Shown here: positions 8,510 through 62,700 of the stretch, in pieces
How positions within the stretch are numbered: position 1 is the first letter of the stretch
Layout of the letters: each line of letters starts with the position of its first letter
Virus record (IMG/VR): IMGVR_UViG_3300021479_000006
Span: 102,901-166,900 of that record
Strand: one strand, 5' to 3'
DNA: 64,000 nucleotides
From: a virus
Notes under the pieces: generated by a model
Database searches by the model: none
Told to the model about the DNA's origin: nothing
Seen by the model: the letters and a program-made list of their open reading frames with translations, nothing else
Position numbers and translations under genes: made by a program

Positions 8510-8809
8510 ATGTTGAACCCAATATCAAATAAAATAGTAGTTAAGATAAATAATTCTGGTAGTTGTTTTTTAAGTGATCCAGACTCTATGCTGGCTTCAG
8601 TTCTTACAGAAGTATTAACTGCTATGGGACATAAATTCCCTTTTAGTAAAGACATATTATCTCAATTAAATGAAAATGAGCTTGAATCTAATAAGGATAT
8701 ATTTCCGAAGAAAATTAATTACTATCTTGGTAGCACATTTATTATGCAGGAAAATATTTTAAACCCTGGTGTGTTTAGATTTTATTCACCCTTTATATCA
8801 TTTTCGTAG
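8510..8809 (+). CDS. 99-aa hypothetical protein
   Basis: Follows the interrupted gene by 6 bp, so probably the second gene of that pair. Its 3' end overlaps the convergent rhomboid gene by 28 bp. No motif recognised. Confidence 0.5.
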   Translation: MLNPISNKIVVKINNSGSCFLSDPDSMLASVLTEVLTAMGHKFPFSKDILSQLNENELESNKDIFPKKINYYLGSTFIMQENILNPGVFRFYSPFISFS

Positions 8810-9348
8810 GAGATTTCTTTATTATTAAGGTATTCATAATAACCATATAAAATACCTACAACAGCACCTAAAACATGTGCTTCATAAGCAATATTATCAT
8901 TAGGTAGTGCTACAACATTAATAAAATTACTAATTATGGACCATATGATATAAAATCGGATCAACCAAAATCTTGTAACAACTAAGGCGTACCCTTTAAG
9001 TACATAAATTCCGGTTGAGGCACCAAGTAATCCTCCAGGCGTTCCCATAAAATAACAAGCGTATAATAAATTCGCTATGGCACCAAGCAAAAATATTTTG
9101 AATATATCTTTTCTGTTTTCATATACTTCAAGATAATATCCTGTCATAAATAAGACAACAATATTATTTAGTATGTGTGAATAATCCGAATGGAAAAACA
9201 AAGCTGTTACAGAAGTTATGAATGTAAATCTATTACCTTTTGTAATACAGAAAAACCATAAGAATACATCATTGTATATACAGATCTGCTCAAAAATAAA
9301 ACAGAAAATAATTATACATATTAACAGAACAGTTTTATTCTTCTTCAT
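8782..9348 (-). CDS. rhomboid-family intramembrane serine protease
   Basis: 188 aa, about six hydrophobic segments. HSDYSHILNN (residues 53-62) fits the conserved HxxxN region of helix 2. GASTG holds the catalytic Ser111 and EAHVLGAVVGILYG carries the catalytic His158 with the AHxxG...G packing motif. Both dyad residues are present, so an active membrane protease is expected. The start overlaps the end of the gp46-like gene by 14 bp, implying co-expression. Target unknown; a host membrane protein or phage superinfection-type function is possible. Confidence 0.82.
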   Translation of the reverse strand: MKKNKTVLLICIIIFCFIFEQICIYNDVFLWFFCITKGNRFTFITSVTALFFHSDYSHILNNIVVLFMTGYYLEVYENRKDIFKIFLLGAIANLLYACYFMGTPGGLLGASTGIYVLKGYALVVTRFWLIRFYIIWSIISNFINVVALPNDNIAYEAHVLGAVVGILYGYYEYLNNKEISYENDIKGE

Positions 9349-12772: not shown

Positions 12773-13301
12773 AACAAACAACTACTAATCTGTCTGAATT
12801 ATTAAGTAAATGTTCTTCAATTAATGTATTATAATCACCCCGGATACGTTTCTTTTTAAGACCACTGATGGCTTTATTTTTATATTCGTATTCTGTATAA
12901 GAACAAGAAGCTGTAAAAATACCAGTAGTGGTATTATCATAATATTCAGTATTTACAATAAAAGATTCAGGAACTGTATATTTTGGACTAAATTTACATT
13001 CTATTTTCTCTTTATATTCTCTGGCCTTCACAGTAAATATAGGTGATATATTAGAAAAATATGTTCTACAGGCTGATGAAATTGGTTTAAACCCTAATAT
13101 TTTTTCTATATCAGACTTCTTTTTCTTATTAAAGAACCACTGGACATAGGCTTTTAAAAAAGGAGTATATGTGTTCTTAAATAGAGTAGAATTTTCAATC
13201 TGATATTCAAATTCATATAGATCATCTTGATTTATTACCTCATCATAAGCTTCTTCTAAATCTTTATACTCAGGTAAAATAACAGCTATTGATTTGATCA
13301 T
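12762..13301 (-). CDS. 179-aa hypothetical protein
   Basis: Mixed alpha/beta composition with a basic segment FFNKKKKSDIEKILGF and GLKKKRIRGDYN. No motif recognised. Its start overlaps the RNase HII stop by 4 bases, so it is translationally coupled to that gene. Confidence 0.55.
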   Translation of the reverse strand: MIKSIAVILPEYKDLEEAYDEVINQDDLYEFEYQIENSTLFKNTYTPFLKAYVQWFFNKKKKSDIEKILGFKPISSACRTYFSNISPIFTVKAREYKEKIECKFSPKYTVPESFIVNTEYYDNTTTGIFTASCSYTEYEYKNKAISGLKKKRIRGDYNTLIEEHLLNNSDRLVVVCSKI

Positions 13302-13888
13302 ATTAAATTATTAATATCGAAAGAGACTCTATGATATGGTGATAAACCATGTTCATCAATTGCCATTTTATGTTCTTTAGTTAAATAACCAGAGTTTTTA
13401 TCCCAGCCATATTGAGGATATTGCTCCGATAAAACTCTCATATAATTATCTCTATATGTTTTTGCTATTAAAGAGGCAGCTGCAATTGAATAATATTTAT
13501 CATTTCCACCAACTATACATTGATATGGAAAACCTAAAAAAGATTTAAATTGATTACCATTTATTAAAAGGAAATTAGGCTTTATAGATAAAGAATTCAC
13601 AGCATCATTCATTGCCTGTATTGTAGATTCTGAAATATCTATTTGATCTATGATTTTATTATCAGCGATACCTACAGAAAAAGATATTGCTTCACGACGT
13701 ATAATGTCAACGAGTTGATATTTTGCTTTTTCGGTTAATTTATTAGAATCTTTTAATTTAGAATTTCTAAAATTCTTTGGAAAAATTACAGTAGCAGCAA
13801 TTACTGGTCCTGCTATACAATCTCTACCAGCCTCATCTACACCAGCAATAAGCTGATGTGTAATATATTCGAAATATTCGTTCTGCAT
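13298..13888 (-). CDS. rnhB: RNase HII-like protein with two catalytic Asp replaced by Asn
   Basis: 196 aa. Clear family features: LIAGVDEAGR (Asp18, Glu19), SKLKDSNKL, IAAASLIAKTYRD and the C-terminal GYLTKEHKMAIDEHGLSPYHRVSF. The third and fourth carboxylates of the family (in the IDGN and GGDxxxxSIAAAS motifs) are Asn here: INGN (Asn110) and GGNDKYYS (Asn129, with Asp130 next to it). The enzyme may be inactive, metal-altered or use Asp130. RNase HII normally cleaves RNA in RNA:DNA hybrids. It lies between unknown genes with 0-4 bp spacing. Confidence 0.85.
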   Translation of the reverse strand: MQNEYFEYITHQLIAGVDEAGRDCIAGPVIAATVIFPKNFRNSKLKDSNKLTEKAKYQLVDIIRREAISFSVGIADNKIIDQIDISESTIQAMNDAVNSLSIKPNFLLINGNQFKSFLGFPYQCIVGGNDKYYSIAAASLIAKTYRDNYMRVLSEQYPQYGWDKNSGYLTKEHKMAIDEHGLSPYHRVSFDINNLI

Positions 13889-14305
13889 TTATTTTGAATT
13901 GAATTTTTCCTTTAACTTAGACAATTTATCTTCATAGGATTCTACTGGTTTCATGGGTAAAGAAATGTGTTTCTCTCGCCTAGTATGATCCTCATTGTTT
14001 AATATAATGAAGGTTATTAGTTCACCTAACGCATAAGGCTCAAAACATCTCTCTGATGCATATCTCATCTCTGTTTTATATTCACCTTCAACAGAATCAT
14101 AATCTCGTATAGCTTTTTCTGAACCAAGCTCAGGATAATTTTCATAACTTATTTCAAAGTCTTCAAACTTACCATAACTACAATCATCATGTGGACCAGA
14201 AAAAAGACAAATACTAGATTTCTCCATAGTATCACATTTACAAGACCTAGTATTTACTCTTACGATATATTTATCGTTTAATTTTACAACTACACCTTTA
14301 ATCAT
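13889..14305 (-). CDS. 138-aa hypothetical protein with N-terminal Cys cluster
   Basis: Residues 1-45 contain SCKCDTMEKSSICLFSGPHDDC, which could bind a metal ion. The C-terminus is a basic helix (SKLKEKFNSK). Directly upstream of the RNase HII-like gene without spacing. Not recognised. Confidence 0.5.
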   Translation of the reverse strand: MIKGVVVKLNDKYIVRVNTRSCKCDTMEKSSICLFSGPHDDCSYGKFEDFEISYENYPELGSEKAIRDYDSVEGEYKTEMRYASERCFEPYALGELITFIILNNEDHTRREKHISLPMKPVESYEDKLSKLKEKFNSK

Positions 14306-19399: not shown

Positions 19400-20214
19400 G
19401 ACCTTTTCACTTCTATGACCTTGATTCAACTTTATGGGATACTCATTCTAAAGAGGTTGTTATAGATAAAAGAAGTCCTGGTAAAACCATACTTCGATTA
19501 ACAAATATACAATCCTTTCAAACATCAAACCTTAATAAGGAATACAAACTAGAAATTAATTACAATGGTGAAACTCGATATCTGGATCCTGCTGTTTGGG
19601 AGAAGATAAAAAAACTTTCTAAGAACATAACACTTGCTGATGTGGGTATATCTGGAAGAGAGTTTACACAAGATGAATTTTTAGATAAGCAGGCAAAACA
19701 TCTTGAAATATTCTTAAACGTTCTTAATAGTATTAAAGGAAAGGATGTTTCTGTAGGTATTATTACTGCCAGAAGCAAACAAAAAGAACATTCTGAATTA
19801 CTTAAAAAGTTTAAAGATACGGTTAAGCAGAAATTAGGTATTGATATTACCAAAATTTATTTTGTTAATGATAATTCTGTTTCTGATCCGGATTCAACAG
19901 CCTATAAAAAAGTTAAAATACTATTAGAATATCTAATCGGATTAAAAATAAAAGGTGATTGCTTCACAAATTTAAAACAAGATTCTGATGCTAATGAAGT
20001 ATACTTTTATGATGATATAGAAAAGAACATAGAGGCAGCAAATAACATAAACTATCTGTTTATAAAATTATTTCATGAAACACCAGATAATATCAAATCC
20101 ATAATAATAGAAAAAATGGATAAATCTCCTTTAAAACTTATTACTAATAAAATAACAAATAATAAACTCAATCCATTTGTTACAACAGAGAACATTTTAA
20201 AAAAGCCTAATTGA
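19396..20214 (+). CDS. HAD-like phosphatase, second copy
   Basis: 272 aa. FYDLDSTLWDT (motif I), VGIITARSKQKEHSE (motif II) and VYFYDDIEKNIEAANN (motif IV). Start overlaps the previous HAD gene by four bases (ATGA). Tandem HAD proteins may act on nucleotide or nucleic-acid 3'/5' phosphates, as phage polynucleotide phosphatases do, but this is inference. Confidence 0.75.
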   Translation: MRPFHFYDLDSTLWDTHSKEVVIDKRSPGKTILRLTNIQSFQTSNLNKEYKLEINYNGETRYLDPAVWEKIKKLSKNITLADVGISGREFTQDEFLDKQAKHLEIFLNVLNSIKGKDVSVGIITARSKQKEHSELLKKFKDTVKQKLGIDITKIYFVNDNSVSDPDSTAYKKVKILLEYLIGLKIKGDCFTNLKQDSDANEVYFYDDIEKNIEAANNINYLFIKLFHETPDNIKSIIIEKMDKSPLKLITNKITNNKLNPFVTTENILKKPN

Positions 20215-29389: not shown

Positions 29390-30550
29390 TTATTTATACA
29401 TCCATTTAAAACCACCAGATGTAATTCTTTTGCCTATACAACAACTACATATAGATCTTCGATCAATATGTAATTTATCCGAGGCTTCATTAGCTGATAC
29501 CCATTCACTTATTATATTTTTATCTAAATCTAATTGTATTACAGCTTTCTTTTTTTTATATGGCTCATTATGATGTTTATCAATTATATCATCATAGCTC
29601 CGATCATTCAAATAATAAAACTTGTAACTATTGAGCTTACCTCTCTTTCCTTTACACATCATATTAATGTATCCATCAGATACGTCATTATCTATTGCTG
29701 CTAATATTAAACTTTTATAAATAGTTTCTTTGTTTGTTATCTTACATATTTTTTTTACATACTTTTCTGAATTTGAATTTATAGATTCTCTTTTTTTTCT
29801 ATATTCCTTCTTTTCTTTAATAGAAATATTAGAATACTCCCATATGAAACCATTTGTTTCACCCTGTAAACCACGACAACATTTTGATATTAATACATAA
29901 TTTGAATTTGTGTTTTTTGCTGCTTCTGTTATACTATTATACACTTTAATAATATTATAATTATAATCATACTGTATTATCTTCTTTTTTTGTATATCAT
30001 TTATTTGAAGTTCTTCATCATGATACTTCCAATAAAACCCACCAGCTGTTATTGCTTTATGTCTGCAACAAGCAACAATATTAGACATATCTATGTTGTT
30101 TTGTAATCCAGCTTCCACAATACTTTCATATGAAACAATAACTTCTTTTGTTTTCATACAGATTTTATCTATTTTTCTCATAGATAAAATCATATTAGAT
30201 TTCACACCTTCTTCACTTATATTAGCAAGTACACCTGTATTATTAATAATTTTCCCTATACTCTTTATAAGAATTGCTTCATTTATTAATGCATTATTCT
30301 CGGTAATACCAGTTAAATACATCTCGCAAAACGGTGTATGTCCACTTTTTTTAATAGCTTTTATTTTATTGTTTTTTAAATTACTGTATTTTAAACTATA
30401 AGGATATAGATGCATTTTATATCGATCTGATTTACCTTTGCCAACATAAAAAGGTTCGTATAAAAAACAACAATTTACATTTTCATATTCATAACGACCT
30501 TTCTTTCTTGGATCTAAATATACATACACATAATAAAAATTTTTAGACAT
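29390..30550 (-). CDS. GIY-YIG homing endonuclease with NUMOD1-type repeats
   Basis: 386 aa. The N-terminal ~110 residues match a GIY-YIG variant (YYVYVYLDP ... EPFYVGKGKSDRYKMHL). The remainder holds several NUMOD1-type DNA-binding repeats (VYNSITEAAKNTNSNYVLISKCCRG ... GFIWEY; EWVSANEASDKLHIDRRSICSCC). Free-standing homing gene placed directly upstream of the sheath gene, between tail genes. It has its own GATATATAC motif before the start. Probably moves by cutting intronless or endonuclease-free relatives of this site. Confidence 0.85.
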   Translation of the reverse strand: MSKNFYYVYVYLDPRKKGRYEYENVNCCFLYEPFYVGKGKSDRYKMHLYPYSLKYSNLKNNKIKAIKKSGHTPFCEMYLTGITENNALINEAILIKSIGKIINNTGVLANISEEGVKSNMILSMRKIDKICMKTKEVIVSYESIVEAGLQNNIDMSNIVACCRHKAITAGGFYWKYHDEELQINDIQKKKIIQYDYNYNIIKVYNSITEAAKNTNSNYVLISKCCRGLQGETNGFIWEYSNISIKEKKEYRKKRESINSNSEKYVKKICKITNKETIYKSLILAAIDNDVSDGYINMMCKGKRGKLNSYKFYYLNDRSYDDIIDKHHNEPYKKKKAVIQLDLDKNIISEWVSANEASDKLHIDRRSICSCCIGKRITSGGFKWMYK

Positions 30551-45336: not shown

Positions 45337-46398
45337 TTACAAACTCTTAATTTTATTTATTTGATCGATAGTAAGATTGTTATAATCAACAATAATATTT
45401 ACATTCAAAATAAGATTACCCCGAAGGTCATGTTGAGGATTGTTAATCAATCCTTTATTACTCATCTTCAAACCTTGCCCGTCTTCTATTTTTGCCGGAA
45501 TATTAATTTCATATTCTTTACCATCAAGATGTGTAAATTTAAACTTACCACCAGTAATGGCTGTTTTAAAATCAATATCTATTTTTCTTTGTAAATCACC
45601 ATTACTACCTCTTTTGTAAAGATTATGTTCTTTTTCTATAAGTTTTATAAATAATGATCCTTTTTTTCCAAGGTCTGTATAATACTTAGAAAAATGCCCA
45701 TAATTATGTACAGTATATTTTCGTTCACCTTTATGTGAGTATAAAGTTTCTACTGGTATTTTTTCATCTTTTTCACAAACCTTCTCACCTTTACATTTAG
45801 CACAAAGTTGTGTATGGATTCTTCCGCTACCTCTACAGAATCTACATTTAGCACCTTGGAATATTCCTGTTTGTCCACACATTAAACAATCATTACCATC
45901 ATCAGATAAGTCAGAACCTGTACCATCACATTTAGTACATACAACATTTCTTTTATAGTTAATATTTAATTTCTCATTACGATAGATATGTTCCAAGGTA
46001 ACATCAACAGTCAAATTAATATCAAGTTCTTCAAAAAAACCTTGTGTATCTCTACGTGTTTTAAATGGATCATATTGCCTACTACCTTGTGTAAAACCAC
46101 TACCAAACATTTCATTAATCAAATCTTCAAAGTTTTTATCACCTTGTGGGTATGTACGACCATTTTGATTATAATTATATCCACCAAAATTACCATGAGT
46201 TTTCATAGTATCATAATTAGATTTCTTTTGTGGATCACCTAATATCGAATATGCTTCATTTATTTCTTTGATCTTTTCTTCAGTACCACCAATATCTGGA
46301 TGATGTAGTTTACTTAATCGTCTGAAGGCTTTTTTAATATCCTCCTGAGTACTACTTGAAGTAACTTCAAGAATTTTGTAATAATCTTTATTCTCCAT
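45337..46398 (-). CDS. dnaJ: DnaJ-type Hsp40 co-chaperone
   Basis: 353 aa. J domain with HPD at residues 33-35, a Gly-rich linker, then four Cys-x-x-Cys zinc-finger repeats (CTKCDGTG, CLMCGQTG, CRFCRGSG, CAKCKGEK) and a C-terminal peptide-binding domain. All functional parts appear intact. Probably recruits host DnaK for virion assembly or replication. A 59-aa gene overlaps its start by 11 bp. Confidence 0.93.
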   Translation of the reverse strand: MENKDYYKILEVTSSSTQEDIKKAFRRLSKLHHPDIGGTEEKIKEINEAYSILGDPQKKSNYDTMKTHGNFGGYNYNQNGRTYPQGDKNFEDLINEMFGSGFTQGSRQYDPFKTRRDTQGFFEELDINLTVDVTLEHIYRNEKLNINYKRNVVCTKCDGTGSDLSDDGNDCLMCGQTGIFQGAKCRFCRGSGRIHTQLCAKCKGEKVCEKDEKIPVETLYSHKGERKYTVHNYGHFSKYYTDLGKKGSLFIKLIEKEHNLYKRGSNGDLQRKIDIDFKTAITGGKFKFTHLDGKEYEINIPAKIEDGQGLKMSNKGLINNPQHDLRGNLILNVNIIVDYNNLTIDQINKIKSL

Positions 46399-46609: not shown

Positions 46610-46640
46610 TTTGTTAAATTGTTAAAAAAAGCTAATTTTG
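46610..46640 (+). promoter_or_regulatory. Bacteroidetes-type promoter TTTG-N19-TAATTTTG
   Basis: TTTG 46610-46613 and TAATTTTG 46633-46640 match the consensus exactly. Transcription would start near 46647, so the IF-3 start must be the ATG at 46676 and not the upstream TTG. Confidence 0.7.
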
Positions 46641-46675
46641 ACGTAAACTTTCATCGATTTAATACTATAAAAATA

Positions 46676-47215
46676 ATGAAACCAAATTTTAAATCTAATT
46701 TTAAGTACCAGAAGAAAGAAAATCCTCATAAAATTGACGATTTTATTAGAGCTACAACTGTAAGACTTGTAGGTGAAGGTACCAGTGATATTGTAGAACT
46801 GAGTTATGCACTTAAACAAGCTGACAGTTTAAATTTAAATCTTGTTGAGATTAATGGACAAGTAAACCCACCTATTGTTAAAATAATGGATTATAAAAAG
46901 TTCCTATATGAACAGGAGAAAAATAAAAAAAATACTAAAGGTCCTACAACTAAAGAAATTCAGCTAACATCAAATACCGGCCAGAATGATATTGATGTTA
47001 AAATGAAGAAAATTTTAGAATTTTTAGATAAAGGTCATAAGGTTAAAATAGTCATGAAATTTCTGGGTAGAAATATTCAGTTCGTTAGCCGTGGTGAAGA
47101 AATGCTTTTAAGAATGGCTGAGAAACTTGCTGAAGTAGGTAAGATTGAACAGTTACCTAAACTGGAAGGTAAGAATATGCTACTTTATGTGGCTCCTAAA
47201 CCAAAAAATAAATAA
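46676..47215 (+). CDS. infC: translation initiation factor IF-3
   Basis: 179 aa with both IF-3 domains. N-domain: IRATTVRLVGEGTSDIVELSYALKQADSLNLNLVEI then PPIVKIMDYKKFLYEQEK. C-domain: KEIQLTSNTGQNDIDVKMKKILEFLDKGHKVKI. It keeps the full length of cellular IF-3. IF-3 prevents subunit association and checks start codons on the 30S subunit, so a phage copy could bias initiation towards phage mRNAs. Driven by a consensus host-type promoter, so probably early. Confidence 0.9.
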   Translation: MKPNFKSNFKYQKKENPHKIDDFIRATTVRLVGEGTSDIVELSYALKQADSLNLNLVEINGQVNPPIVKIMDYKKFLYEQEKNKKNTKGPTTKEIQLTSNTGQNDIDVKMKKILEFLDKGHKVKIVMKFLGRNIQFVSRGEEMLLRMAEKLAEVGKIEQLPKLEGKNMLLYVAPKPKNK

Positions 47216-56600: not shown

Positions 56601-57083
56601 TTATAAGAAGATTTCCTTGACTAACAACAAGGGGGGTTCTGACCTCCATTTGAGGTGCTTCAACATCGCTATAGATGCAGAGCCAAATGTTATAAAAGGT
56701 GTTGATGGCCTCCAATTGAGATGCTTCAACATCCATCGATTTAAAAGGATGTTCGCTTGGCAAGGTGTTTCTGGCCTCCAATTGAGATGCTTCAACATCT
56801 CGTGTACTTTTGTCAGCGAATTTGCTATTGGTGTTTCTGGCCTCCAATTGAGATGCTTCAACATCATGTTAGTTATAAATGTTTGAATGTCTTTATATTT
56901 CATACAATATTGTTTCTCAAAAACTGACCATATTATTGTATAATCAACATATAAGTAGCTATTTTTTCTATTGTACATCACAACATATCCTTCCGAATCT
57001 TCGAATATAATACCATAGGGGTATTTCTTATCCACTGAAATACTCCCTAACTTCGATATCAAAAATTCCTCCGATGTCATCAT
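56601..57083 (-). CDS. ORF ending in the CRISPR-like array
   Basis: 160 codons. The first ~72 residues (starts MMTSEEFLISKLG, ends DIQTFITNM) look like a small real protein. From codon ~73 the frame simply runs through the array: repeat and spacer together are 66 bp, so the frame stays open and each repeat reads MLKHLNWRPETP. The start overlaps the stop of the channel gene. Either the protein is cut short in function or the array was inserted into the 3' end of the gene. Confidence 0.4.
   Translation of the reverse strand: MMTSEEFLISKLGSISVDKKYPYGIIFEDSEGYVVMYNRKNSYLYVDYTIIWSVFEKQYCMKYKDIQTFITNMMLKHLNWRPETPIANSLTKVHEMLKHLNWRPETPCQANILLNRWMLKHLNWRPSTPFITFGSASIAMLKHLKWRSEPPLLLVKEIFL
56632..56865 (-). 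CRISPR. CRISPR-like mini-array: four 36-bp repeats, three 30-bp spacers
   Basis: Repeats at 56830-56865, 56764-56799, 56698-56733 and 56632-56667 (minus-strand order). The first two are identical, the third differs at 2 positions and the last at 5, as expected for the degenerate trailer end. Each spacer is exactly 30 bp and they are unrelated to each other. On the minus strand the repeat core is GCATCTCAATTGGAGGC, and the outer ends pair in part (TGTT with AACA). From memory, type VI-B (Cas13b) repeats are 36 nt with 30-nt spacers, GTTG/CAAC-type ends and a core of the same kind (GC...TTGGAGG). No cas gene is in the window. Orientation is inferred from the decay of the last repeat. Confidence 0.82.
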
Positions 57084-58168
57084 TAGTAAACCAGATTGTA
57101 TTTAAATAAAGTCTGTTGCCACTCAGTATCCATTGTATATTGAAGTATCAAAGGATTCAATTCTTTTCGTAATTCAGTATGTTCTTTATTAAACGCTATA
57201 CCGTAAAATTGTGTATCAAATTCCTTAGATGATAATTGAACGTGATTTTCAAAACCCTCTTTTTTAATTAAATATTTTAGAACGGGTGTATCATATACTA
57301 AAGCATCAAGTTCTCTATTTTTAATTGCATGGAGGCCTTCCACAACACTATTGAATCCTATATGACGTACGCCATGATCACTTAAATAAAAAGAGCTAGT
57401 TGTTCCAACAATGGTTCCAACTTTTTTCTTTTTTAGAGTATTGATATTTTCTATTTCATTTTCCAGCTTCTCCACAGTAAATGCTGCTGTAATCGAAGAT
57501 GAAATAATTGTATTGATAAAGAAACAAGCAAATATAAACACTATAATAATAAATTTACCAAGATTAGACCTGGTAACTTTATCACCGAAACCAACTGTAG
57601 CCTGGACAACAGCCATAAAATAAAAACCGTCAAAAATACCCATAGGACCAGAACTAAAATCAGGATTGTTTTTATATTCTATTATCCAAATAACAATACC
57701 CATAACAAATAGTAGAACAAAAAGAAAAACGAATACTCTGAGATAATCCCAAGATAATAGTTTTCGTATAATCAATGCTGAGGTTGATTCATCAACTGGG
57801 GTTGTAGCAACTCCATATGTCGTAATGAAATAAGGTTGGCTAAAATCAACCACCTGTAACCGCTGTGCATTAATAGTTATAGATCCAAAACCGATATCAA
57901 GCTTTCCTGTATTCACATCATGTAATAATGTTGCTATATTATCTAGGTGATATTCTATTACCACATACTCTATACCCTCTTTTTGAGCAATTTTATTCCA
58001 AAGATCAAAACTTAAACCACCATAACTATTGTCTTTGTTTTTCATTACAAAAGGTGGTGAAATGTAAGTACCAACAATTAACTTCTTTTTAATCGGTACA
58101 CCAAAGGAATTCACAGATATTATAAAGCTTAGAAATAATACCGATATAGTCTTCATTATATTTTTCAT
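57083..58168 (-). CDS. GluR0-like ligand-gated potassium channel
   Basis: 361 aa. Signal peptide (residues 1-~23), then SBP_bac_3-type lobe 1 (VGTYISPPFVMKNKDNSYGGLSFDLW; GFGSITINAQRLQVVDFSQPYF). After it come TM1 (~142-163), a pore loop with the K+ filter TVGFGD (191-196) and TM2 (~204-228), then lobe 2 to the C-terminus. This split order is that of prokaryotic ionotropic glutamate receptors such as GluR0. An extracytoplasmic amino-acid-like ligand would open a K+ pore. First gene of an operon-like unit whose transcript would include the CRISPR-like array. Confidence 0.88.
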   Translation of the reverse strand: MKNIMKTISVLFLSFIISVNSFGVPIKKKLIVGTYISPPFVMKNKDNSYGGLSFDLWNKIAQKEGIEYVVIEYHLDNIATLLHDVNTGKLDIGFGSITINAQRLQVVDFSQPYFITTYGVATTPVDESTSALIIRKLLSWDYLRVFVFLFVLLFVMGIVIWIIEYKNNPDFSSGPMGIFDGFYFMAVVQATVGFGDKVTRSNLGKFIIIVFIFACFFINTIISSSITAAFTVEKLENEIENINTLKKKKVGTIVGTTSSFYLSDHGVRHIGFNSVVEGLHAIKNRELDALVYDTPVLKYLIKKEGFENHVQLSSKEFDTQFYGIAFNKEHTELRKELNPLILQYTMDTEWQQTLFKYNLVY

Positions 58169-59730: not shown

Positions 59731-62700
59731 ATGATTAATATAGCAAGTATATCAAATAATACTATAGAATTCACAAGTACAAATGATCCTATCACTCTAT
59801 CAGGAGATGTCTCTGGATCTGGAACTAACGGAATCACTACTCTTGTAAATTGGCCTAATGGTTATCCAACTTACGATACTAGATATTCTACACCTTCGAG
59901 TACAGATACATTTACAAATAAGTCAGGTAATATTTCGCAATGGTCTAATGATTCGGAATATTTAACAGGAAATGAATTAATTATATTATCAGGAGATGTT
60001 ACTGGATCTGGTACTTCTGGAATTTCAACAATAGTTACTTGGTCTAATGGATATCCTACTTATGATGCTAGATATGTTACACCTTCCAGTACAAATACAT
60101 TTACAAATAAATCAGGTAACATTTCGCAATGGTTTAATGATGTTGGTTATTTAACCAATGATAAACCAATAATTTTATCTGGTGATGTAAGTGGAACTGG
60201 TACTTCAGGTATTGCTACATCCGTTAATTGGACAAGTGGTTATGCAACTTATGATTCAAGATATACATCTAAAATAGAAACACCTTTAAATGTAAAAGAT
60301 TATGGTGCAGTTGGTGATGGTATTACAGATGATACAGTAGCAATTAACGCTGCCTTGGCAGCAATGGGTACTCTAAATAAAGATTTATTCTTACCAAGTG
60401 GTACTTATTTAGTAAATACTTATACGGCACCTATTTTATCTGGATCAAGTAATAAAATATTAAGAGTAGAGAATTCTGGTATAGTAAAATTTAGAATATT
60501 TGGGGAAAAGGGTACTTGTATAACATCTAGTCTAGATAATGGTACACAATTAATTTTGTATAATAAATTAACCGATTGTGTAATAGAAAATATATTTTTC
60601 CAAAATACTCATGCTGTAACACTAAATCAAACAGGAGCAATTTATTTATCCGGTACATCATCACAAAATATTAAAAATTTAAAAATAAAAGGTTGTAGAT
60701 TTGAAGGTTATTCTACAGCAATACTAACACAAGGTGTAACTGGTTTCACAATTGAAGATTGTATATTTGAATCACCTCTGGGACATGATAACGCACAAAA
60801 CAATACACAACCAGCAGTGTATGTATGGTTTCATGATAATCCTGGACAAGGTGTATGTATAGATGTTAAAATTAGAAATTGTGTCGCTAACGGGTTTTCT
60901 GGAACAGATATTACAACTACTACAACTAAAAGACCTATGGATGGCTTTTTGGATGGTACAGTTTATGGTTTAGAATATATTGGTAATACGACTAAAAATT
61001 TTAGTCAGGAACATATTATATTATATCCAACAGTACCGGCATCTACTACAGTAGTTGTAGATTCATATTCATTACTAATTGCAGATTCACATTTTTATTT
61101 GTCTGTTGTACCAAATTCTGTTTATACGCCAACGAGTAGTACTTCTGGATTAACTAGTAATTATGGTGTAAGAGCTGATTGTAATAATGTTAATATTTCT
61201 AATTGTGATTTCTTCGATTATACATCTGGTATATTAATATTACCATTACAATTTCCGACACTTAAACAACACGGATTTAAAATATCTAATAATAGATTTT
61301 ATAGTCCAAGAACCACTACACCTGTAGCATATACACCTTATGAAGCTATAAAAATACAAGGATCTACAACAACAGGTAATGCTGCTTATAATATAACAGT
61401 TGATAGCAATTATATAGATATTGATGGAATAACATTACAATCTAATAGAGGTGCAATCTCTATTTACAATTCGGAAAAGGTAAATGTTATGAATAACACC
61501 ATTTATAGTCAAAATGTTAATCTAAATGGTTATACATTAAATGGTATTTTATTATCAAATCTAAATAATACTACGTTAAAAAACAATAATATAATTGGTA
61601 TAGCGACACCTTATAATATATCTGGGGTTCCTGTAGGAAATTTAATAACAGATTCAACAGTTCCAACATTGGGTGATTTACAACTTAGAAATGGTGGAGT
61701 ACCTAATGAAATGGTAACTTTATTAGGTAATATAACATTTGCTGATTCAGCACCAAAAAACTATTATTGGAATTCTACATCTATTGCAACTATAGATAAT
61801 ATATCAATTGTGGGTTCTACATCTGGGACTGGTAGATGGGTAGCATTACCGGTACAATCAAATTTAATAACACCTATAGTATATGGATCTAGTACATCTG
61901 GTGGTGCTTTAAGATTAGATAGCACTTCAAATTCAATTAAAGGTAATATTTATTTTGATGATTCTTCTGGATTTGACTCAATAAATATGTTTTTAGGTAT
62001 AGGTACACCAATTCCTCAGTCAAAATTACATTTAGTTGGTAATATAAAAACTTCAGCCTGGACAACAAATGGTATTGGTTTAAGAATAGCTCCTGCTGTG
62101 TATACTGATACAACGAGTAATGGTGCTGTACCAACTGTTTATGCTCATACAATAGGATCACCTACGTTTGCTACATCATCTGTTACAACTTATTCGCAAG
62201 CAGCAACTCTGTTTATAGATAAGCCAACAGCTGGAACAAATGCTACAGATGCAAACATTTCCTCTCTTATATTAGGTGGTGATTTACAACTTCAAACCGG
62301 ATCAACAGCTAAAATTGGAACAATTGATAACAATGGTCTCAATATTAGAACTAATTCTATAAGTAGAATATTATTAACTGCCTCAGGTCAAATGACTTTT
62401 CAGAATACAGGTTCTGCTAGTGGATCAGTACCATTTATTCAATTTACACAAGCAGTAAATACTGGAGGTAGTGGAAGTGGATTTTTATGGACAGCTGCTC
62501 CTCATACTGGTCAAGCAAATAACACTGAAATAACTGATATTAATTTCAATTTATCAGCAAATATGAAAATGCTTGATGGTACATCGGGATTACAAAGAGC
62601 ATTTAGAATACAAGGAAGAACTTATACACCTGTTACAAGTAATTTGACTTTAATTGAGGCTTCTACATTAGAAGTAAATCCTCCCATCGCTGGTATAGGA

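Follow-up and report, generated by a model that had tools for sequence, protein, structure and literature searches.

The locus at positions 56632-56865 raises the question of whether a phage in which no cas gene was found carries a true CRISPR array or a repetitive coding sequence, and what it could do with such an array. The window, the 64,000-nt stretch analysed here, is the end part of a 166.9-kb virus record (G000), which represents a contractile-tail phage because tail sheath and tail tube are encoded in the window. On the minus strand, four 36-nt repeats and three 30-nt spacers form array 1 (Table 1). Repeat starts lie 66, 66 and 66 nt apart, the three spacers are mutually unrelated and exactly 30 nt each, and repeat decay increases with distance from an upstream open reading frame (ORF), as for an array read on the minus strand. 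The architecture reported by the first-pass annotation, including positions and difference counts, was reproduced exactly, and its minus-strand reading agrees with the identity of repeats 1 and 2 near the leader and the decay of the far repeats. A genome-wide census of exact repeats (20 nt or longer) placed the 36-nt copies of array 1 among the longest exact repeats of the record. Exact 36-nt copies at 66-nt spacing, together with an array of the same build elsewhere in the record, put array 1 beyond chance. Array 1 is a genuine CRISPR-type array rather than a repeat protein. Taken over all arrays, near-identical 36-nt repeats alternate with unique spacers of 30 nt (29-31).

Table 1. Features of the array 1 locus in window coordinates, with a candidate host repeat pattern.
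Feature	Position	Strand	Remarks
ORF, 160 aa	56601..57083	-	leader domain from 57083 to ~56866; reads in frame through array 1
Repeat 4	56632..56667	-	terminal; 5 differences
Spacer 3 of array 1	56668..56697	-	30 nt; no match in INPHARED or PLSDB
Repeat 3	56698..56733	-	2 differences
Spacer 2 of array 1	56734..56763	-	30 nt; no match in INPHARED or PLSDB
Repeat 2	56764..56799	-	same sequence as repeat 1
Spacer 1 of array 1	56800..56829	-	30 nt; no match in INPHARED or PLSDB; 20-nt core absent from IMG/VR
Repeat 1	56830..56865	-	leader-proximal; doubles as coding 3' end of leader domain: GATGTTGAAGCATCTCAATTGGAGGCCAGAAACACC
Ion-channel-like gene	57083..58168	-	Pfam SBP_bac_3, Lig_chan, Ion_trans_2; TAATG overlap with leader ORF
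Self-protospacer	57806..57835	-	inside ion-channel-like gene; source of array 2 spacer 1
TTTAGCCAA	57836..57844	-	directly upstream of the G000 protospacer in guide orientation; fits TTTANNNNN
Candidate host repeat pattern			A or C before the final C: GTTGTGGAAGCATCTCAAATGGAAGGTAAAAACA[A/C]C

Beyond what had been described for this locus, there are a second array, a self-derived spacer, an upstream ORF that is conserved and continues in frame into repeat 1, and relatives in other phages. Array 2, recovered by a repeat search of the record at positions 60647-60815, shares the 36/30 build and comprises three repeats of the type GTTGTGGAAGCATCTCAAATGGAAGGTAAAAACACC, the last of them degenerate, and two spacers; its repeat differs from that of array 1 at 7 of 36 positions. 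Each array occupies the 3' end of a small ORF, and the two ORFs are homologous, with 48% identity. Beside array 2, in divergent direction, lies a gene that by eye resembles thymidylate synthase (L009:1113-2285, plus strand; record positions 61113-62285).

The conserved part of these ORFs is a leader frame of ~75 aa, inside whose 3' end the arrays start, so that the cassette consists of a leader whose last 12 codons are repeat 1, followed by 36-nt repeats and 30-nt spacers. Array 2 of G000 has a leader homologue, and an IMG/VR search with the leader protein added the phages G001, G002 and the distant G007, the last apparently complete at 51 kb with a 123-nt terminal repeat. Two or three cassette copies are present in all four phages. 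All copies have a leader domain whose end lies in frame within repeat 1, and in G001 and G007 other reading frames carry the domain as a C-terminal fusion. One G001 copy is a solitary repeat unit, the remaining copies being arrays, and a truncated second repeat also occurs. The two G001 leader copies (C1 179 and 41581; L014, L012) share an identical 64-nt stretch, which suggests that the cassette was recently duplicated or gene-converted in this phage. Leader and repeat 1 look translated, since codon position 3 is the most variable in both and pN/pS is 0.51 and 0.39, respectively. In array 2, in G002 and in one G007 copy, stops or shifts interrupt the frame once one or two repeats have been passed, so the complete array is not preserved as a coding sequence; the frame happens to stay open through array 1 and through the whole array of one G007 copy. 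The AF2 model of the leader contains a helix, four strands and two helices (mean pLDDT 72), and the domain had no Pfam match, only weak PHROGs matches (E 0.035 or worse) and no convincing PDB or fold match. Neither the Cas13b loci nor any of 396 Bacteroidota genomes gave a match to a leader profile, the genome result being a weak negative for want of a positive control. Three closely related copies (P 0.03-0.07), unlike the rest, hint at an inhibitory hairpin between leader and repeat of the kind found in host VI-B systems.

The first-pass annotation had likened the 36/30 format to type VI-B (Cas13b) arrays. A degenerate repeat pattern scanned over a genome collection of 84,980 species matched 31 stretches, including 17 arrays, 15 of which had a Cas13b gene in the fetched DNA. 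Because this pattern was partly modelled on the phage repeat, an independent position weight matrix (PWM) was built from the repeats of ten loci that had been located by their Cas13b protein alone. With this PWM, the phage array repeats occupied ranks 1-18 among 707,774 36-mers of the four phages (either strand), scored against the Cas13b profile alone, and degenerate repeat copies ranked 78th and 83rd. The repeats of the distant G007 were absent from the top scores and do not score as VI-B; with this exception, the array repeats combine a 36-nt Cas13b-family repeat with 30-nt spacers. The proposed VI-B-like nature thus holds by format and by likeness to the repeats of host cas13b loci. As RNA, single repeats folded no better than shuffled sequences. 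The likeness points to Bacteroidota as the probable host phylum. The nearest genome repeat, from Bacteroidales (L065), has 8 mismatches in 36 positions, and no host with the exact phage repeat was found among the 84,980 species; published mini-arrays mostly match the host repeat. Position 35 is C in all seven phage repeats compared and A in 25 of 26 host repeats, and of the complementary GTTG...CAAC ends of VI-B repeats, pair 2-35 is broken by C35 in six of the seven phage repeats, with the other terminal pairs mostly kept. The host-type repeat pattern gave a single chance match in IMG/VR, in a terminase-looking gene.

As the first-pass annotation had supposed, no cas genes were found with the arrays: searches for Cas13b and Cas1 returned no match in G000, G001, G002 or G007, and short arrays of this kind in virus genomes correspond to mini-arrays. 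In the absence of a cas13b match in any of the four phages, they are not filed as a VI-B system, and because neither Cas13b nor Cas1 was found, the machinery would have to be supplied by the host or encoded in parts that the records lack. A 417-aa protein that by eye looks like TnpB lies ~1.7 kb from the G002 array (L013:61-1314, minus strand; G002 13000-14262); as a candidate effector it was set aside, because Pfam gave no match and the other three phages have no homologue.

CRISPR adaptation is recognised by the capture of DNA pieces of fixed length, and G000 and G002 each display it in one self-derived spacer that is exact over 30 nt. Array 2 spacer 1 (record positions 60750-60779), CCTTATTTCATTACGACATATGGAGTTGCT, is identical over 30/30 nt to the self-protospacer in the ion-channel-like gene, and the identity ends at both spacer boundaries. 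Apart from this spacer and its source, the exact repeats of at least 30 nt in G000 are the array repeats and two further pairs (at 35-36 kb and near 163 kb). Spacer and source are read in different frames, indicating that the spacer is a DNA copy. In the five-repeat array of G002, spacer 2 equals G002 19860-19889 over exactly 30 nt and is antisense to a nucleotidyltransferase gene. A source was thus found for 2 of 11 internal spacers, the remaining nine having no known source. On the evidence of these alignments, fixed-length self capture is not explained by a repeat protein.

In Flavobacterium columnare, the type II-C machinery seems to acquire the type VI-B spacers in trans, and roughly half of the protospacers have TTTANNNNN upstream in guide orientation (PMC8092290). 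The G000 protospacer has a fitting sequence at this place (Table 1), TTTA occurring at 1.5% of positions, and the G002 protospacer has TTCG in place of TTTA, so the acquisition motif holds for one of the two protospacers. Array 2 spacer 1 is presumably the youngest of its array, since it is leader-proximal. Self-protospacers and arrays lie 0.9 kb and 3.4 kb apart, a closeness that is suggestive only. Within the channel gene, the TTTA motif and the beginning of the self-protospacer overlap, perhaps by chance, with a terminator-like stem-loop, GGTTGATTTTAGCCAACC, followed by a T-rich stretch (57834-57851, minus strand). Identical leader-proximal repeats and an exact self-derived spacer in one array of each of two phages suggest that the arrays recently captured DNA, likely via borrowed host machinery.

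The locus is therefore best described as what is probably a phage-borne, cas-less mini-array cassette of type VI-B (Cas13b) lineage, one that would depend on its host and accept spacers through host machinery. During the phage's stay in the cell, host Cas1-Cas2 would add spacers adjacent to the leader, the array would be transcribed together with the leader gene, and the resulting crRNA-like transcripts would engage host Cas13b. Use of host Cas13b and an RNA-decoy role, both raised in the first-pass annotation, are plausible. Rather than a precise weapon, the cassette may be chiefly a decoy whose repeat-bearing RNAs sequester Cas13b and which probably absorbs spacer-integration events too. We put this forward tentatively, as a role with a fair amount in its favour, because self spacers are tolerated, some copies have scarcely a spacer, the repeat end is consistently changed, and Cas13b can reportedly be titrated by an excess of crRNA-like RNA (PMC13187072).

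Somewhat unlikely, by comparison, is a use against competitors, in which array crRNAs would guide host Cas13b to the transcripts of co-infecting phages. Such a role is known for virus-borne mini-arrays elsewhere (PMC6858448, PMC11656645), and the spacers are diverse, most of them lacking a match in the phage itself; with most spacers having no known match at all, the reading retains its place. However, the spacer search proposed in the first-pass annotation yielded no targets: no spacer searched had an outside target, matches in INPHARED being chance stretches of 20-25 nt, PLSDB plasmids giving none, and two spacer cores (20 nt for array 1 spacer 1) being absent from IMG/VR. The related phages G001, G002 and G007 likewise held no spacer match beyond the self copies, and two spacers match their own carrier, which a weapon should avoid. 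In the reverse comparison, spacers of bacterial Cas13b arrays had at least 6 mismatches to the phages. A further reading is speculative and on balance unlikely: a dedicated Bacteroidota-phage counter-defence cassette, in which a small leader protein, possibly an anti-CRISPR, would be encoded by DNA that is also the CRISPR leader and first repeat, the array would divert host Cas1-Cas2, with spacers taken from the invader ending up in the phage rather than the host genome, and its RNAs would occupy Cas13b unproductively.

That the arrays are decaying relics of a larger CRISPR-Cas system, either one that the phage lineage used to carry or one obtained from a host by recombination, is quite improbable. 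The arrays are small, their terminal repeats are degenerate, no cas genes were found in the Cas13b and Cas1 searches, and some copies are reduced to one repeat, but the relict origin considered in the first-pass annotation conflicts with the signs of recent capture in both G000 and G002. In addition, the leader is under purifying selection, was not found at host Cas13b loci, and belongs to a cassette that has been amplified rather than lost. Silencing of the phage's own genes by array guides is very doubtful: two spacers match own genes exactly and the G002 spacer is antisense, but the G000 spacer is sense, so that an array read with its leader would yield no guide able to pair with the channel mRNA, the two genes have no relationship to each other, and collateral RNA damage would follow from activating Cas13b. 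Finally, that the leader ORF simply encodes 22-residue repeats (MLKHLNWRPETP plus 10 variable residues) from which the DNA repeats follow is scarcely credible, for although the ORF passes all four repeats of array 1, continues through one G007 array and has a coding first repeat conserved in all copies including G007, there are exact 30-nt spacers from other genes in another frame, broken frames in other copies, repeats identical at synonymous sites, and similarity to Cas13b repeats. The earlier argument against a repeat protein accordingly stands for the later repeats and the spacers, which behave as DNA, and has to be amended for repeat 1, the coding 3' end of a conserved protein.

A cassette of this kind resembles the mini-arrays of SPV1 and SPV2 (Saccharolobus; PMC6858448) and of Chiyouvirus (Bathyarchaeia; PMC10848311) in having few repeats and spacers, a leader, no copy of the needed cas genes, and an expected reliance on host machinery. 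A role as interviral weapon has been proposed for the former (PMC6858448), and Chiyouvirus carries exact self-matching spacers of unknown role (PMC10848311). In contrast to these viruses, the present case involves VI-B-like repeats in a phage, a coding leader that reads into repeat 1, and several copies per genome, some of them fused, and neither an identical host repeat nor a spacer against a related virus was found. With the type VI-B arrays of Bacteroidota, e.g., F. columnare (PMC8092290), the phage arrays share 36-nt repeats, 30-nt spacers, the repeat profile and, once, the upstream motif, whereas the phages have no cas13b in their records, show one terminal pair broken by C in place of A at position 35, and possess a coding leader not found at host loci. 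RNA anti-CRISPRs (Racrs; PMC10651486) are likewise phage-encoded repeat mimics that could titrate an effector, and the single-repeat G001 copy resembles their solitary repeat units; however, most phage copies here have several repeats and true spacers. The leader-derived extraneous crRNA of type VI-B (PMC13187072) offers a further parallel, as a leader-adjacent repeat could yield abundant crRNA that occupies Cas13b, but there it is a by-product blocked by a host leader-repeat hairpin, and here such a hairpin is suggested in some copies.

The Racr survey lists repeat units of all CRISPR types except VI (PMC10651486), and the arrays in at least two phages appear to be a type VI-B-like case beyond its types. 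Their exact self-derived spacers suggest that arrays in phage genomes were recently open for adaptation. Among the published systems compared, a leader that is a conserved gene reading into the first repeat has no counterpart. The cassette makes testable both a phage diversion of host spacer acquisition and the ways in which Cas13b immunity is countered.

Several other genes in the window deserve mention. The product of the ion-channel-like gene next to array 1 has a solute-binding domain split by an ion-channel domain and resembles a bacterial glutamate-receptor-type channel, which is unusual in a phage. The window also encodes a complete translation initiation factor IF-3 (IF3_N and IF3_C; 46619-47215, plus strand), a rhomboid-family protein (8782-9348), ribonuclease HII (13298-13888) and a DnaJ-like chaperone (45337-46398), the last three on the minus strand. 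A GIY-YIG homing-endonuclease-like protein with NUMOD domains (29390-30550, minus strand) lies beside the tail sheath gene.
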